A stretch of 64,000 nt of DNA from Pseudomonas frederiksbergensis (lineage in GTDB: Bacteria; Pseudomonadota; Gammaproteobacteria; Pseudomonadales; Pseudomonadaceae): positions 1,959,501-2,023,500 of the forward strand of contig NZ_FNTF01000002.1 in the NCBI RefSeq assembly GCF_900105495.1. The letters run 5' to 3'. Below are positions 20,054 to 54,536 of the stretch, piece by piece. The position numbers were made by a program, and so were the translations under genes. The notes beneath the pieces are model-generated. The model saw only the letters and a program-made list of their open reading frames with translations, ran no database searches and was not told the DNA's origin. Position 1 is the first letter of the stretch. The number at the start of each line of letters is the position of its first letter.

Positions 20054-20770
20054 TCAAGGCATCAACACTTCAATCGAACCATCCGCCGTCATGCTGACCT
20101 GGCTGGTGCCCGCCTCAACCTCAGGCGTCACTGGTGCCGAATCCATGCTCGCCGCCTTCATCATCATCGGCCCACGCATGTACGGTTGTGGATAACCGTT
20201 GCTGTTCAGGTTCAGGTTGACGATTTTGTAACCGCTGCCGCCCAACGCGTCGGTCGCCAATTGAGCGCGGGCCTTGAAGGCTGTCACGGCTTCTTTAAGC
20301 AGCGCATCTTCGCTGGCTTTGCGGGTTGGGGTGGCGATGGCGAAGTCCATGCCACCCATTTTCAGGTCGGTGAGCAATTCGCCGGTCAGTTTCGACAGCG
20401 CAGCGAAGTCGGAGCTTTCCAGGCGCAGTTCGGCGCGTTCGCGCCAACCGGTGATTTTCTGGCCCTTGGTATCGTAGATCGGGTAGCTGTTGCGGCTGCC
20501 CTGGCGCAGGGTGATGTCTTTGACCTGCTTGGCCTGGGCCAGTGCTTTGTTCATGGTGGTGCTGACGTCAGCGGCGAGTTTGGCCGGGTCGGTGTTTTGT
20601 TCTTCGGTGTAGAGCGTCACGATCATCAGGTCGCGGGCCACTTCCTGGCTGACTTCGGCGCGCAGGGCGATCTGGTTGTAGTGCAGCTCGTCGGCGGCGA
20701 GGGCCGGCAGGCTGGCGAGAGTGCCAGCGCTAAGGGCAAGAAGGGCGGCGCTGCGGCGGAATGTGTGCAT
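20054..20770 (-). CDS. SIMPL domain (DUF541) periplasmic protein
   Basis: This 238-residue protein has a signal peptide MHTFRRSAALLALSAGTLASLPALA followed by one SIMPL/DUF541 domain (LHYNQIALRAEVSQEVARDLMIVTLYTEEQNTD and GWRERAELRLESSDF). Family members are periplasmic or outer-membrane proteins of poorly known function, sometimes linked to oxidative stress. It is monocistronic, with a strong terminator downstream and the IS110 element about 150 bases upstream of its start. Confidence 0.82.
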   Translation of the reverse strand: MHTFRRSAALLALSAGTLASLPALAADELHYNQIALRAEVSQEVARDLMIVTLYTEEQNTDPAKLAADVSTTMNKALAQAKQVKDITLRQGSRNSYPIYDTKGQKITGWRERAELRLESSDFAALSKLTGELLTDLKMGGMDFAIATPTRKASEDALLKEAVTAFKARAQLATDALGGSGYKIVNLNLNSNGYPQPYMRGPMMMKAASMDSAPVTPEVEAGTSQVSMTADGSIEVLMP

Positions 20771-20902: not shown

Positions 20903-20919
20903 ATCGCGAGCAGGCTCGC
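20903..20919. repeat. REPIN left arm, separated from its partner by the IS element
   Basis: ATCGCGAGCAGGCTCGC is the exact reverse complement of 22124-22140. Joined across the IS at the CT core, the two arms would form an ordinary Pseudomonas REP doublet with a loop of about 27 bases containing CTCCCACA and TGTGG. Confidence 0.85.
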
Positions 20920-20920
20920 T

Positions 20921-21105
20921 TGTATGGTAGGACTTGAAGGGAGGAGGAGGGACAAGGCTCGATTCTGACTGTTGACGCAGTACAGACCGTGGGAGATTTC
21001 GCCCCTCCTCCTTTCACCCAAGCGCCGATAAAGAATGCATCTGGCTAGACCGACGATAGGAACAAGCCTGCGCCTCTGGGTGAGCCCTTCAAGTGCTTAA
21101 AACCA
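20921..21105 (+). ncRNA. Putative IS110 bridge RNA
   Basis: The region has two consecutive long-range stems, each holding a large loop. Stem 1 pairs 20936-20947 with 21004-21015 (12 bp with one G-U pair). Stem 2 pairs 21015-21020 with 21077-21082 and extends with AGCGC/GCGCCT. Loop 1 contains AGGCTCG (20955-20961), identical to the left target, and GTGGGAG (20989-20995), the reverse complement of the right target CTCCCAC (22095-22101). Loop 2 contains AGAAT (21032-21036), identical to the right end of the IS (22090-22094), and ACAAG (21062-21066), the reverse complement of CT plus the first three bases of the IS (20919-20923). This is the target-loop and donor-loop layout described for IS621. 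Exact RNA ends are unknown. Confidence 0.75.
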
Positions 21106-21123
21106 TATCCCGGAGGAAATCCA

Positions 21124-22071
21124 ATGGCAATGCCGGTTTCTGTCACAAAGCCGATCGTAGGTGTGGATGTCGCCAAGAATGAACTGGTGATTTATCAGTC
21201 TGATGGGGATTTGCTTGAAGAGATTCCCAACACCAAAACATCCATCAAACAGTGGCTGAAGGCGTTGTCGGGGACGGTGGCTATTGCCATTGAGGCGACC
21301 AACATTTACCACCTGGACTTCGCTGATCTGGCCTATGAGGCCGGTTGCACGATTTACATGGTGGGAGGCTATGAGCTCAAACATTATCGCGAAGGCGTGA
21401 AGATCCGCGCCAAAACCGACGCACTGGATGCCAAGCTACTGGCTCGTTACCTGAAGAACGAAGCCGAGGAGTTGCGTCCTTGGACCCCGCCCTCACCGCT
21501 GTACCGCCAGCTCCTGAGCCTTTTCCGCCGCCGCGCAGCCTTGGTCCAGGCCAGGGTCGGCCTGGTGCAGAGCTGGTCGAATGAGCCGCTGCTTAAGGCG
21601 GCTTTTGCCGAGCAAGTGAAGTCCATGCAGCAGCTTGAGACGCTGATCGAAAAGACGATCAACGATCAGCTCAAAGAAGCCGGTTTGCTCGGTCAATTGA
21701 AGCGCTGCCTGAAAGTTGAGGGTATTGGATTTTTGACTGGGGCCCGCTTGATAACTGCATTTCAGCGAGGAGATTTTAGAAACGCGGATGCCTTTATCGC
21801 CTTCCTGGGCATGGATTTACGGGTGGCGAAATCAGGACAGAAGGACGCTCGCCGCAGTTTGACCAAGCGCGGCGACCCCGAGGCCCGCCGACTTCTGCAC
21901 AATGCAGCGATGTCGGCTAGCCGTACGAAAGCCTGGAAAGGGTATTACGAAGAACAAAGAACGCGGGGTTTCAGCACCACTCAGGCGCTGGTGATGCTGG
22001 CTCGCAAGCTTGCTCGGGTGGTATTCGCCTTGCTGAAAGGGCAAAGCGAATATCAGCCAAAAGCCAGTTGA
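21124..22071 (+). CDS. IS110-family transposase (DEDD recombinase)
   Basis: This 315-residue RNA-guided recombinase has the N-terminal RuvC-like DEDD set visible as D15 (VGVDVAKN), E57 (IEATN), and D99 and D102 (TDALDAK). The C-terminal Tnp20 domain has the VEGIGFLTGARLITAF helix-hairpin-like part and AKSGQKDARRSLTKRGDPEARRLL; S237 in the SG pair is the likely catalytic serine. GGAGG lies 8 bases before the ATG. The frame is intact, so the element may be active. The long 5' and short 3' non-coding ends suit the IS110 group rather than the IS1111 group. Confidence 0.95.
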   Translation: MAMPVSVTKPIVGVDVAKNELVIYQSDGDLLEEIPNTKTSIKQWLKALSGTVAIAIEATNIYHLDFADLAYEAGCTIYMVGGYELKHYREGVKIRAKTDALDAKLLARYLKNEAEELRPWTPPSPLYRQLLSLFRRRAALVQARVGLVQSWSNEPLLKAAFAEQVKSMQQLETLIEKTINDQLKEAGLLGQLKRCLKVEGIGFLTGARLITAFQRGDFRNADAFIAFLGMDLRVAKSGQKDARRSLTKRGDPEARRLLHNAAMSASRTKAWKGYYEEQRTRGFSTTQALVMLARKLARVVFALLKGQSEYQPKAS

Positions 22072-22123
22072 GGGCTTTCCCTCAACCATAGAATCTCCCA
22101 CAAGGGGACGCATTTCAATGTGG

Positions 22124-22140
22124 GCGAGCCTGCTCGCGAT
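22124..22140. repeat. REPIN right arm beside the IS element
   Basis: GCGAGCCTGCTCGCGAT is the inverted partner of 20903-20919 and lies 28 bases beyond the right IS border. It is the undisturbed half of the doublet. Confidence 0.85.
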
Positions 22141-22262: not shown

Positions 22263-23525
22263 ATGCTCGCCCCCGTTCAAATCACTTCCGCAACTCGCCA
22301 GAACCTTTGGCGGCTGACGTTCATCCGCACATTGGTATTGGCCGCTCAGGCCGGTTCCGTGGGCCTGGCCTACTGGCTCGACTTGCTGCCGCTGCCCTGG
22401 TTCCAACTGGCTGCGACCCTCGGCTGTTCGATGCTGCTGTGTGCATTCACGGCCATTCGCCTGCGCACCTCATGGCCGGTTACCGAACTCGAATACGCCG
22501 TGCAACTGGCCTGCGACCTGTTTATCCACAGTGCCTTGCTGTACTTCTCCGGCGGCTCGACCAACCCCTTCGTCTCTTATTACCTGGTGCCGCTGACCAT
22601 TGCCGCGGTGACGTTGCCGTGGCGTTATTCGGTGATTCTGTCCGGCATCGCGTTGACGATGTACACCCTGCTGCTGGCGCGCTTCTATCCGCTGCAAACC
22701 TTCCCGATCGCTCGGGAAAACCTGCAGGTTTACGGGATGTGGCTGAGTTTCGCCCTGGCCGCGGCGGTCATCACTTTCTTCGCCGCACGCATGGCTGAAG
22801 AGCTGCGTCGTCAGGAAGAATTGCGCGCCATCCGTCGCGAGGAAGGCCTGCGCGATCAGCAATTGCTGGCCGTCGCGACCCAGGCTGCGGGTGCCGCCCA
22901 TGAATTGGGCACGCCGTTGGCGACCATGAGTGTATTGCTCAAGGAAATGCGCCAGGACCATCACGACCCGATGTTGCAGGAGGACCTGAGCGTGCTCCAG
23001 GATCAGGTCAAACTCTGCAAGGAAACCTTGCAGCAATTGGTGCGCGCCGCCGAAGCCAATCGTCGATTGGCCGTGGAGATGCAGGACGTCACCGATTGGC
23101 TCGACGAAGCCCTGAACCGCTGGCACCTGATGCGCCCGGAAGCCAGTTATCGCTTCCAGCGCCTGGGCCAAGGCCCCGTGCCGCGCATGGCGCCGCCGCC
23201 GGACCTGACCCAGGCGCTGCTGAATTTGCTCAACAATGCCGCCGACGCTTGCCCCGAAGGGCTGCAAGTGACGCTGGACTGGAATGCCGAAGACCTGACC
23301 ATCAGCATCCGCGACCACGGTGCCGGTGTGCCGCTGGCTATCGCCGAGCAGATCGGCAAGCCGTTTTTTACCACCAAGGGCAAAGGTTTCGGCCTGGGCC
23401 TGTTTTTGAGCAAGGCCAGCGTGACACGCGCCGGCGGCTCAGTGAAACTCTACAGTCATGAGGAAGGCGGCACGCTCACCGAGCTGCGCCTGCCCCGTGT
23501 CGCCCGAGGAGACGAACATGAGTGA
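22263..23525 (+). CDS. roxS: Redox sensor histidine kinase RoxS/RegB/PrrB type
   Basis: This 420-residue inner-membrane kinase has six hydrophobic segments in residues 1-180, including the quinone-site motif GGSTNPF. A coiled linker follows, then the H-box AAHELGTPLATM (phosphorylated His) and a HATPase domain with N-box (LLNLLNNAADA) and GKGFGLGLFLSKA. In Pseudomonas, RoxSR controls terminal oxidases and the cyanide/redox response. The start at 22263 follows an AGGAG; the frame extends upstream, but that part lacks family features. It overlaps the regulator gene by 8 bases. Confidence 0.92.
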   Translation: MLAPVQITSATRQNLWRLTFIRTLVLAAQAGSVGLAYWLDLLPLPWFQLAATLGCSMLLCAFTAIRLRTSWPVTELEYAVQLACDLFIHSALLYFSGGSTNPFVSYYLVPLTIAAVTLPWRYSVILSGIALTMYTLLLARFYPLQTFPIARENLQVYGMWLSFALAAAVITFFAARMAEELRRQEELRAIRREEGLRDQQLLAVATQAAGAAHELGTPLATMSVLLKEMRQDHHDPMLQEDLSVLQDQVKLCKETLQQLVRAAEANRRLAVEMQDVTDWLDEALNRWHLMRPEASYRFQRLGQGPVPRMAPPPDLTQALLNLLNNAADACPEGLQVTLDWNAEDLTISIRDHGAGVPLAIAEQIGKPFFTTKGKGFGLGLFLSKASVTRAGGSVKLYSHEEGGTLTELRLPRVARGDEHE

Positions 23526-24084
23526 CGAGATCCAAGTCGAAGGCGAAGGCGAAGAACTGCCGCATTTGCTGCTGGTAGACGACGACGCAACTTTTACCCG
23601 GGTGATGGCCCGTGCCATGGCCCGCCGCGGCTTTCGCGTCAGCACCGCCGGTTCCGCCGAAGAAGGCCTGACCATCGCTCAGGCCGACCTGCCGGACTAC
23701 GCCGCGCTGGACCTGAAAATGGACGGCGATTCTGGCCTGGTGCTGTTGCCCAAGCTGCTTGAGCTGGACCCGGAAATGCGCGTGGTGATCCTCACCGGTT
23801 ACTCGAGCATCGCCACCGCCGTCGAGGCGATCAAGCGCGGCGCCTGCAATTACCTGTGCAAACCGGCGGACGCCGATGACGTGCTGGCCGCGCTGCTTTC
23901 CGAACATGCCGACCTCGACACGCTGGTGCCGGAAAACCCGATGTCGGTGGATCGCCTGCAGTGGGAACACATCCAGCGCGTGCTGACCGAACACGAAGGC
24001 AATATCTCCGCCACTGCCCGGGCCCTGGGCATGCACCGCCGCACGCTGCAGCGCAAACTGCAGAAGCGTCCCGTTCGTCGCTGA
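23518..24084 (+). CDS. roxR: Response regulator RoxR/RegA/PrrA type
   Basis: This 188-residue two-domain regulator has a receiver domain with the acidic pocket LLVDDDAT, phosphoacceptor LDLKMDGDSG and a conserved CKPAD lysine. A short linker leads to a Fis-type helix-turn-helix NISATARALGMHRRTLQRKLQK, nearly invariant in the RegA/PrrA/ActR family. It is the cognate partner of the upstream kinase, to which it is translationally coupled. A perfect hairpin terminator ends the operon. Confidence 0.93.
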   Translation: MSDEIQVEGEGEELPHLLLVDDDATFTRVMARAMARRGFRVSTAGSAEEGLTIAQADLPDYAALDLKMDGDSGLVLLPKLLELDPEMRVVILTGYSSIATAVEAIKRGACNYLCKPADADDVLAALLSEHADLDTLVPENPMSVDRLQWEHIQRVLTEHEGNISATARALGMHRRTLQRKLQKRPVRR

Positions 24085-24124
24085 ACCTGCGCTGAACGAA
24101 TGCGGGCCGCACCTCGCGACAAAC

Positions 24125-24150
24125 CGAACCGATCCTCTATGATCGGTTCG
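24125..24150 (+). terminator. Terminator of roxSR
   Basis: CGAACCGATC-CTCTAT-GATCGGTTCG is a perfect 10-bp stem followed by a T-rich stretch (TGTGTGTTCTTTTC). It lies 40 bases after the roxR stop. Confidence 0.8.
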
Positions 24151-24181
24151 TGTGTGTTCTTTTCTTTATCGAGCCTTATCC

Positions 24182-25909
24182 ATGAATCAGAACGCTGAAT
24201 ATTCCGCGGTCAATGATGCTGTGCGCGGGCAGTTTTTTCGCAAAGTCTGGGCAATGACTACGCCTTACTGGCGCAGCGAAGAGAAGGGCAAGGCCTGGAC
24301 GTTGCTGATCGCGGTGATCGCGCTGTCGTTGTTCAGCGTGGCGATTTCGGTGTGGGTCAACAGTTGGTACAAGGATTTTTACAATGCCCTGCAAAGGAAG
24401 GATGAGGCCGCGTTCTGGCAGTTGATCCTGTATTTCTGCGGCATTGCGGCGGTGGCGATTCTCGGCGCGGTGTATCGGCTCTACCTGACCCAGATGCTGA
24501 CCATCCGCTGGCGGGCCTGGCTCACCGAGAAGCACTTCACCCGCTGGCTCGACAACAAGAATTACTACCAGCTGGAGCAGGGTGGTTACACCGATAACCC
24601 GGACCAGCGCATTTCCGAAGACCTCAATAAATTCACCACCAACACCTTGCTCCTGGGCCTTGGTTTGATCCGCAACATTGTCAGCCTCGTCTCGTTCTCG
24701 ATCATTTTGTGGGGCGTGTCCGGCAGTATCGAAGTATTTGGTTTCACGATTCCCGGTTACATGTTCTGGTGCGCGCTGGTCTACGCCGCCGTCGCCAGTT
24801 GGCTGACGCATTTGATTGGCCGTCGCCTGATCGGCCTCAACAACAACCAGCAACGCTTCGAAGCCGACCTGCGTTTCTCCATGGTGCGGGTTCGCGAGAA
24901 TGCCGAAAGCATTGCGCTGTACAACGGCGAGCCGAATGAAAATCGTCGCTTGAGCAGCCGTTTTGGAATGGTCTGGCACAACTACTGGGACATCATGAAG
25001 GTGTCCAAGCGCCTGACCTTCTTTACATCCGGTTATGAGCAGATCGCCGTCATCTTCCCGTTCATGGTCGCCTCGCCGCGATACTTCGCTGGCAAGATCG
25101 AGCTGGGTGAGCTGATGCAAATCAACTCGGCGTTCGCTAACGTCCAGGACAACTTCAGCTGGTTCATTACGGCGTACCAGGACCTCGCCGAATGGCGGGC
25201 TACCTGTGATCGTCTGCTGAGTTTCCGCCAGGCCATGACTGACAACGAAAATCGTGCACCGACGATTGATGTGCAGAATTCGGGCTCGGCTTTGAAGGTG
25301 CACAACCTCGGCCTCGATCTGGCGGATGGTCGTCACCTGCTGACCAACGCCGAGATGACCGTGGAGGAGGGCGAGCGGGTCATGCTCAGTGGCCGTTCCG
25401 GCAGCGGCAAGTCGACCTTGCTGCGGGCGATGGGGCATCTGTGGCCGGCTGGCCATGGCAGCATTCGTCTGCCGACGGGGCGTTATCTGTTCCTGCCGCA
25501 AAAACCGTATCTGCCGATTGGCACGCTGCGCGAGGCGTTGAGTTATCCACAGGCTGGCGATACGTATCCGCAGGAACGCTACGTTCATGTGCTGGAGGCC
25601 TGCCGTTTGCCGCACCTCGTTGCCCGTCTGGACGAAGCCAATCACTGGCAGCGCATGTTGTCGCCGGGTGAGCAGCAACGTCTGGCCTTCGCTCGTGCGC
25701 TGCTTTACGCGCCGCAATGGCTGTACATGGACGAAGCGACCTCGGCGATGGACGAGGAGGACGAAGCGTCGCTGTATCAGACCTTGATCGATGAGATTCC
25801 GGGATTGAGCATCGTCAGCGTCGGGCACCGCAGCAGCCTGAAGCGGTTCCATCCACGTCATGTGCGTATCGAGAATGGCCATCTGGTGGACCAGACCGTG
25901 ACCGCATAA
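24182..25909 (+). CDS. ABC transporter, fused permease/ATPase of YddA (SbmA-related) type
   Basis: This 575-residue half-transporter has an N-terminal ABC_membrane_2 domain with about six TM segments and the SbmA-like patch SWYKDFYNALQRKDEAAFW and NPDQRISEDL. The C-terminal ATPase domain has Walker [11 protein letters not shown], signature LSPGEQQRLAFARAL and Walker B WLYMDEATSAMDEED. It probably works as a homodimer. Family members are linked to vitamin B12 or peptide-type substrates, but the substrate here is unknown. The start MNQNAEYSAVND is preferred over an upstream in-frame start because it follows a run of T and fits family length. Confidence 0.85.
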   Translation: MNQNAEYSAVNDAVRGQFFRKVWAMTTPYWRSEEKGKAWTLLIAVIALSLFSVAISVWVNSWYKDFYNALQRKDEAAFWQLILYFCGIAAVAILGAVYRLYLTQMLTIRWRAWLTEKHFTRWLDNKNYYQLEQGGYTDNPDQRISEDLNKFTTNTLLLGLGLIRNIVSLVSFSIILWGVSGSIEVFGFTIPGYMFWCALVYAAVASWLTHLIGRRLIGLNNNQQRFEADLRFSMVRVRENAESIALYNGEPNENRRLSSRFGMVWHNYWDIMKVSKRLTFFTSGYEQIAVIFPFMVASPRYFAGKIELGELMQINSAFANVQDNFSWFITAYQDLAEWRATCDRLLSFRQAMTDNENRAPTIDVQNSGSALKVHNLGLDLADGRHLLTNAEMTVEEGERVMLSGRSGSGKSTLLRAMGHLWPAGHGSIRLPTGRYLFLPQKPYLPIGTLREALSYPQAGDTYPQERYVHVLEACRLPHLVARLDEANHWQRMLSPGEQQRLAFARALLYAPQWLYMDEATSAMDEEDEASLYQTLIDEIPGLSIVSVGHRSSLKRFHPRHVRIENGHLVDQTVTA

Positions 25910-35383: not shown

Positions 35384-35478
35384 CATCGCGGGCAAGCCCG
35401 CTCCCACAGTGATCTTTGGTGTTCACACAATTTGTGCAACAAAGGAGATCCCCTGTGGGAGCGGGCTTGCCCGCGATG
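35384..35478. repeat. REPIN, GCGGGCAAGCCCGCTCCCACAG family
   Basis: 35384-35409 and 35453-35478 are exact 26-bp inverted repeats separated by 43 bases. The same REP family occurs at 37396-37466 and, as a close variant, at 54448-54536. It lies between convergent genes. Confidence 0.92.
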
Positions 35479-37395: not shown

Positions 37396-37466
37396 TGTGG
37401 GAGCGGGCTTGCCCGCGATGGCAATGTATCTGATACACCGCCATCGCGGGCAAGCCCGCTCCCACA
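37396..37466. repeat. REPIN with nearly continuous stem
   Basis: 37396-37422 and 37440-37466 are exact 27-bp inverted repeats. The short loop itself pairs (TGTATC/GATACA), giving an almost uninterrupted hairpin of about 33 bp. It lies between gatB and the RlpA-like gene, both on the minus strand. Confidence 0.92.
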
Positions 37467-54447: not shown

Positions 54448-54536
54448 TGTGGGAGCGGGCTTGCTCGCGAAGGGGACTTCACATCCAAAATTTTGTTGGC
54501 TGGTAAACCGCCTTCGCGAGCAAGCCCGCTCCCACA
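54448..54536. repeat. REPIN, GTGGGAGCGGGCTTGCTCGCGAAGG variant
   Basis: 54448-54473 and 54511-54536 are exact 26-bp inverted repeats with a 37-base loop. Its core differs from the 35384 and 37396 repeats by carrying TTGCTCGCGAAGG instead of TTGCCCGCGATGG. It lies between the pmbA terminator and the Fur box. Confidence 0.92.

Follow-up and report, generated by a model that had tools for sequence, protein, structure and literature searches.

Bridge RNAs of IS110-group elements have been described for IS621 of E. coli, together with a co-variation analysis over 5,511 target pairs (PMC11208160), and the structural account of IS621 includes a so-called handshake, in which the base that follows the right target guide meets donor position 7 and the base that follows the right donor guide meets target position 7 (PMC11208158). 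In Pseudomonas, ISPpu9 and ISPpu10 are described as inserted in REPs (PMC1525189), and a predicted bridge RNA of ISPpu10 is drawn as one of six examples in Extended Data Fig. 10 of PMC11208160. Natural reprogramming between related elements has been described as well (PMC11187229). The kind of element treated here, its mechanism and the targeting of REPs by IS110 elements in Pseudomonas are already known.

The window, i.e. the whole stretch of 64,000 nucleotides from Pseudomonas frederiksbergensis that was analysed, holds an insertion sequence (IS) that is very probably an IS110-group element moving by bridge-RNA-guided recombination, with an RNA and an activity that are predicted. Its position and geometry, the co-variation of guides with targets, the preference for guide-matching sites within genomes and the guide differences between and within genomes are direct observations.

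The insertion sequence and its locus

The element and its immediate surroundings comprise the following features.

20921..22094, + strand: IS110-group insertion sequence, 1174 bp (boundaries from the REP halves and the CT core)
20904..20920, + strand: left half of the interrupted REP, with the left target AGGCTCG at 20912-20918 and the core CT at 20919-20920
21124..22071, + strand: transposase/recombinase gene, 315 aa (DEDD_Tnp_IS110 and Transposase_20, Pfam)
22072..22094, + strand: non-coding right end, final bases TAGAAT
22095..22101, + strand: core CT and right target CCCAC (read directly from the sequence)
22120..22139, - strand: inverted second REP arm of the same REP doublet (sequence)

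Assignment to the IS110 group follows from the Pfam domains of the 315-aa protein, PF01548 and PF02371, and the group's layout is seen in the non-coding ends, which measure 203 nt to the left of the gene versus 23 nt to its right. The nearest solved relatives of the recombinase are IS621 (8wt6, E 3e-19) and ISCro4 (9t56, E 7e-19), and its residues D15, E57, D99, D102 and S237 align with the five catalytic residues of IS621 named in PMC11208158 (mapped by eye, with an offset of two residues in chain numbering).

The host genome contains five full-length copies, all of which interrupt a REP at the same place, with AGGCTCG-CT to the left of the IS and CT-CCCAC to its right. Intact AGGCTCGCTCCCAC 14-mer sites occur 284 times in this genome, and the same pattern read backwards does not occur in it. 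At least five IS matches were found in a genome of the same species (G349); for P. frederiksbergensis AS1, apparently the same genome to judge by identical match positions alone, six copies are listed. The orthologous intergenic region of another Pseudomonas genome (L216 in G005) is continuous and free of the IS; it has another REP doublet and shares 80% identity with the joined IS flanks over 340 of 344 bases. A plasmid search yielded 1332 records, all of them below 60% identity.

Three intact REP doublets are present elsewhere in the window (35394-35468, 37397-37465 and 54449-54535), all of AAGCCCG type with at most two mismatches to the target, unlike the AGGCTCG-type REP in which the IS sits. 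Divergent genes flank the IS on its two sides; the neighbours at 20054-20770 and 22263-25909 encode a SIMPL-domain protein, a sensor kinase with a PilS-like membrane domain, a response regulator with a Fis-type HTH and an SbmA/BacA-like ABC transporter. The genome also encodes two Y1_Tnp (PF01797) proteins (G000:C2:4032353-4032676 and 2848882-2849121), which we take to be candidate REP-associated transposases that would spread the REPs used by the IS.

The predicted bridge RNA

The segments of the predicted RNA at the left end of the IS are as follows.

20921..21100, + strand: predicted bridge RNA region, ends approximate (fold z -4.1 on 20921-21123; 24 diverse homologues aligned)
20932..20941, + strand: 5' arm of the closing helix, partner 21085-21094 (minimum free energy (MFE) fold)
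20942..20951, + strand: 5' arm of the target-loop stem, partner 21003-21012 (MFE fold; arm-pairing reshuffles)
20955..20961, + strand: left target guide AGGCTCG (sequence; guide-flank co-variation; held-out copies)
20964-20972/20977-20986, + strand: inner helix, bulged (MFE fold)
20989..20995, + strand: right target guide GTGGGAG, including the core complement (sequence; co-variation)
20996..20998, + strand: putative target-loop handshake bases AUU, complementary to AAT at 22092-22094 (sequence; IS621 scheme, PMC11208158)
21013..21020, + strand: 5' arm of the donor-loop stem, partner 21077-21084, continued by 21022-21025/21070-21073 (MFE fold; arm pairing)
21032..21036, + strand: left donor guide AGAAT, equal to the right end at 22090-22094 (sequence)
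21062..21066, + strand: right donor guide ACAAG, which would pair with CTTGT at 20919-20923 (sequence)
21067..21067, + strand: putative donor-loop handshake base C, complementary to target G20918 (C in 131 of 135 parsed insertions)

The four guide words had been proposed in an earlier note on this DNA, and every one of them proved exact: AGGCTCG (20955-20961) equals 20912-20918, GTGGGAG (20989-20995) is the reverse complement of CTCCCAC at 22095-22101, AGAAT (21032-21036) equals 22090-22094 and ACAAG (21062-21066) is the reverse complement of CTTGT at 20919-20923. Chance is a poor explanation for these words, since dinucleotide shuffling of the 5' end, repeated 20,000 times, never gave all four in order; both 7-mers occurred in five of the shuffles. 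The same note had placed the words in the IS621 scheme, of which the strand rules and the CT-core geometry hold, but the left guides are not carried through the whole core: AU follows the left target guide and GC the left donor guide, the core being CU. Both right guides include the core, so that it does not take part in all four pairings. A discontiguous AU at 21056-21057 may possibly extend the right donor guide, by analogy with the text on the IS621 structure.

Folding of the 203-nt 5' end gives an MFE of -81.3 kcal/mol versus a mean of -61.5 kcal/mol for shuffled sequences (z -4.1; 0 of 200 shuffles as good), and the MFE fold contains two stem-loops that hold the guides. Of the two stems with large loops described in the earlier note, the stem-loops with the guides inside thus stand, but the loops are partly paired: a 3-bp pair joins the left and right target guides (20958-20960/20993-20995), and short pairs reach into the donor guides (21032-21034/21040-21042 and 21043-21046/21065-21068). 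Hence, the MFE fold of the isolated RNA leaves the loops only partly open.

The structural conservation implied by the two-stem proposal is seen as pairing that is kept through sequence change. Across 24 diverse sequences, the own arms of the target-loop stem pair with -22.2 versus -18.7 kcal/mol for reassigned arms and those of the donor-loop stem with -14.8 versus -13.2 kcal/mol, each better than all 20,000 reassignments, which ignore relatedness. The sequences belong to a few groups and do not count as 24 independent events. Single sequences, e.g. L052 and L156 for the donor stem, go in the opposite direction. RNAalifold returns a weak consensus for the 24 sequences, with only 19 pairs and -12.8 kcal/mol, which misalignment of the G-rich arms probably explains. 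At gathering score, Rfam yielded no family in the window, and relaxing the threshold to an E of up to 1 gave a weak isrK hit inside tnp only.

Beside the right guides, the handshake scheme of IS621 fits the IS and its relatives. An A that faces the donor T comes directly behind the right target guide in all 194 contexts with the guide motif when this base was not required (3 of 197 lack the motif), and the base behind the right donor guide is a C, mostly facing the target G, in 131 of the 135 insertions parsed for it (of 141). Three insertions with target base C have U at the donor-loop handshake position, too few to use. At the circle junction, TTGAGG lies just upstream of TAGAAT (TTGAGG-15-TAGAAT; consensus scoring only, with no chance control), and the two motifs could possibly be the -35 and -10 boxes of a promoter formed in the circle.

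Guide-target co-variation across insertions

Relatives came from two sources: 79 loci in named genomes, after 89 relatives had been cut to the best 80, and further matches in 77 of 398 Pseudomonas genomes, with at most two scored per genome; 98 regions were then fetched. To be read by the parser, an element needed GTATG at its left end and an A behind the right target guide, and the right end was located via ATAGAAT; this parser replaced an earlier strict regular expression that read only 43 elements. Its output of 184 elements, which included many copies that had been fetched twice, left 31 of 212 loci unread and came down to 141 distinct insertions with 75 distinct bridge RNAs and 21 guide 7-mers after removal of duplicates. 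Among the protein-selected loci, 67 of 79 were read; 11 of the 12 missed are fragments or have no upstream region, and one (L013) is rearranged. Full-length copies that do not fit the parser pattern include L158, L159, L164, L165, L168, L169, L173, L174, L195 and L196. A looser pattern served for the copies of G301, G383 and G128, those of G080 were read separately, and 23 distinct left guide 7-mers were read in all.

The left CT core is present in all 141 distinct insertions. Left guide and target agree at 7 of 7 positions in 75 of them, or in 89 if G-T/U-G wobble is allowed. Mean agreement is 6.05 of 7, compared with a mean of 4.92 and a maximum of 5.33 when guides are reassigned among the 75 distinct bridge RNAs, so that the observed value was never reached in 20,000 trials. 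Loop 1 is thus not an unchanged sequence that recurs in unrelated targets, a finding that would have spoken against the earlier note: guides vary, and their agreement with the target beats every reassignment. Pooling with a second set gives 198 insertions, of which 102 have a left guide equal to the flank, 159 differ at one position at most and 39 show at least two differences between parsed guide and flank. Register shifts explain some of these misfits (G301, G383 and G128), and real misfits include L037, L041, L061 and L062. Non-wobble mismatches are commonest at the outer end of the guide (21 of 141 at position 1, 3 of 141 at position 7).

The right guide is GTGGGAG in most copies. The GTGGGAG copies have the flank CTCCCAC in 163 cases and CTCCTAC in four, the GTAGGAG copies in none and seven, respectively (Fisher P 4e-10, with cells that are not independent, the seven GTAGGAG copies coming from few lineages). 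Of the 198 insertions, 176 have a right flank and enter this table, two rows with other flanks lying outside the 2x2. A third allele, GTGAGAG, occurs in G080 (L168 and L169), where the left guide AAGCCGCC fits the flank AAGCCGCC-CT and the right guide is one base off from CTCCCAC; on checking, this allele had no compensating flank. A fixed non-wobble mismatch at position 3 marks the lineage with guide AGACTCG (L054-L058, L063, L193 and L194), whose eight insertions all lie in AGGCTCG. In L275-L283 (G301, G383 and G128), an extra base lies inside the guide or between the guide and the inner stem, which suggests from the sequences that the left-guide register is flexible.

The ends of the IS hardly vary (TGTATG in 140 of 141, ATAGAAT in 119 of 119), tallies that arise partly by construction, as the parser required GTATG and used ATAGAAT. 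The claim that loop 2 matches the IS ends is accordingly upheld as a sequence match, the ends being too invariant for co-variation.

Single loci deviate from the common arrangement. In L013, the right end is lost and the left end has given way to REP-like sequence as far as the inner stem of loop 1. The left end of L012 starts with C and not T (CT-C-GTATGG), possibly through conversion by the target or a point mutation; its guide is AGGCTCG and its target AAGCCCG. L037 (G186) has CCCACATTTGGTAGCT on both sides, and its left flank repeats the start of the right flank with no REP half, which looks like a rearrangement or an off-target event.

Choice among REP variants and guide evolution

Five REP 14-mers that represent variants of the left half were counted in 52 genomes, and duplicates were removed by genome and 42-base flank; an earlier version with a 25-base flank, which could merge insertions in identical REPs, was not used. 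The REP of guide type is hit by 41 of 53 usable insertions, whereas 27.4 are expected from abundance, a value of 41 not being reached in 10^6 simulations. From a total of 86, 33 insertions had been dropped with a guide or target outside the five types; if the four with a five-type guide and another target are counted as misses, the ratio becomes 41/57. In hosts whose commonest REP is of another type than the guide, 12 of 22 insertions still hit the guide type, versus 4.7 expected.

The preference recurs in held-out copies, for which predictions were written before fetching and of which none of the parsed ones had been read earlier, as judged by the 42-base flank. Of 36 copies, 35 were parsed and 31 usable, with 27 hits on the guide type compared with 15.7 expected (27/35 if the four dropped copies with other targets are counted as misses), and the subset with minority guides gave 10 hits in 13, versus 2.7 expected. 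All four unread copies of G094, with the right guide GTAGGAG, had the predicted flank CTCCTAC, and new copies from genomes that had been marked as possibly contrary hit the guide type in G367 (3/3) and G100 (1/1). One held-out copy of G290 again lay in a wobble target; the other carried a different guide, which had not been predicted. A choice model puts the per-site preference, relative to 1 for a match, at 0.23 for a wobble (bootstrap 0.07-0.66) and 0.10 for a mismatch (bootstrap 0.0003-0.34), the latter two not being separable from each other (chi-square 1.09).

Across genomes, the guide matches whichever of the five REP variants is most frequent in the host in 18 of 31, compared with 8.3 for shuffled guides (1 in 20,000 as high), in a test that ignores host relatedness. 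On the IS tree of 85 elements, at least 24 guide changes are required, versus at least 48 in 200 label shuffles; guides are therefore inherited, yet switching. Two guides within one genome were seen in 1 of 55 genomes, from most of which two copies were read. In this genome, G290, three copies carry AGGCTCG and one carries AAGCTCG, with IS sequences that are 98-99% identical, the odd copy differing from the other three at 8, 19 and 22 of 1174 bases. The differences are clustered, which suggests recombination between the copies. All four are inserted in AAGCTCG, which accounts for 78% of the counted REPs there, and the AGGCTCG guides would thus face this target with a G-T wobble at position 2. 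We lean slightly towards a scenario in which the left guide is selected to equal the commonest REP, an old guide can serve a new variant less frequently through a G-T wobble, and the switch is then completed by single guide mutations, with G290 caught half-way.

Proposed mechanism and alternative explanations

The following model takes the circle, its promoter, RNA production, strand exchange, the extragenic position of REPs and guide selection from published work on IS621 and REPs. The IS would be excised as a circle in which right end, CT and left end are joined, and the junction promoter may then drive a bridge RNA of ~175 nt that is bound by the recombinase. Loop 1 would pair with both strands of the REP (AGGCTCG-CT-CCCAC) and loop 2 likewise with those of the circle junction (AGAAT-CT-TGT), whereupon the top strands could be cut after CT and exchanged, assisted by the handshake bases next to the right guides. 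Since the guide copies a repeat that is present hundreds of times and mostly extragenic, the IS would find many landing sites at little cost to the host. On an evolutionary time scale, the left guide would mutate and be kept when it fits a REP variant that is common in the host.

Nearly all copies sit at the same position of a REP, as would also be expected if the transposase itself read the REP, for which protein recognition was proposed in older work (PMC1525189), and if the words in the 5' end were a by-product of a conserved or REP-derived leader. Such protein-only targeting seems highly improbable, given that two guides exist among four copies of one genome that are 98-99% identical, that the guide-matching REP is chosen against abundance and that a sense left guide and an antisense right guide with a stem between them make no simple copy of a REP. 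Just as improbable is a 5' structure that serves mainly as control region of tnp, with guide matches left by ancestry: the structured segment is indeed the tnp leader, and ISPpu9 has two small RNAs, Asr9 and Ssr9, that regulate tnp (PMC8450116), yet the segments co-vary with the flanks, which tnp control would not need. A regulatory role in addition to guiding may nevertheless exist.

Guide-flank agreement could also reflect shared ancestry only, with one guide per lineage and mostly one REP type per host, in line with the clustering of guides on the IS tree (24 changes versus at least 48 in 200 shuffles) and with the neglect of host relatedness in the 18/31 test. This is the least probable of the three readings, as sites were compared inside one genome and the preference holds for minority guides (12/22 versus 4.7 and 10/13 versus 2.7). 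Bridge-RNA-guided recombination hence remains the preferred reading of the locus.

Comparison with known systems

The IS resembles IS621 (PMC11208160, PMC11208158) in the DEDD catalytic residues, the bridge RNA predicted at the left end, four guides, the strand rules, the CT core and the REP target, and further in the right donor side CTTGTAT and the first handshake base A facing a donor T. In contrast, the proteins are distant (phmmer E 3e-19), the right target guide has 7 nt here versus 4 bp as described for IS621, and the left guides lack the continuation through the core that is described for all four pairings of IS621 (PMC11208160). A weak further difference concerns the best -10-like box, located in the right end here but in the left end of IS621.

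Among Pseudomonas elements, ISPpu10 of P. putida matches by description as an IS110-family element with REP insertion and a 2-bp direct repeat (PMC1525189). ISPpu9 of P. putida shares family, REP target and a structured leader; described for it in addition are A/B boxes and small RNAs that flank tnp on either side (PMC8450116). ISPa11 of the IS1111 group likewise shows RNA-guided insertion into Pseudomonas REPs, but differs in a guide RNA downstream of tnp, a reversed order of strand matches and subterminal inverted repeats (PMC11187229).

Guide matching to the REP composition of the host and guide polymorphism within a genome were not found in the titles and abstract openings of open-licence papers among the matches listed, a weak form of absence. 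On this footing, the tendency of the guide to equal the commonest REP variant of the host and the two guide alleles in one genome are apparently unpublished. Near-identical targets that compete in one genome amount to a natural experiment on bridge-RNA specificity, from which a per-site preference can be estimated without an assay. REP-targeting elements also suggest a route by which an RNA-guided transposon may change its target and keep its protein, and the mechanism known from IS621 is seen evolving here, as the guide changes with the repeat across related genomes.
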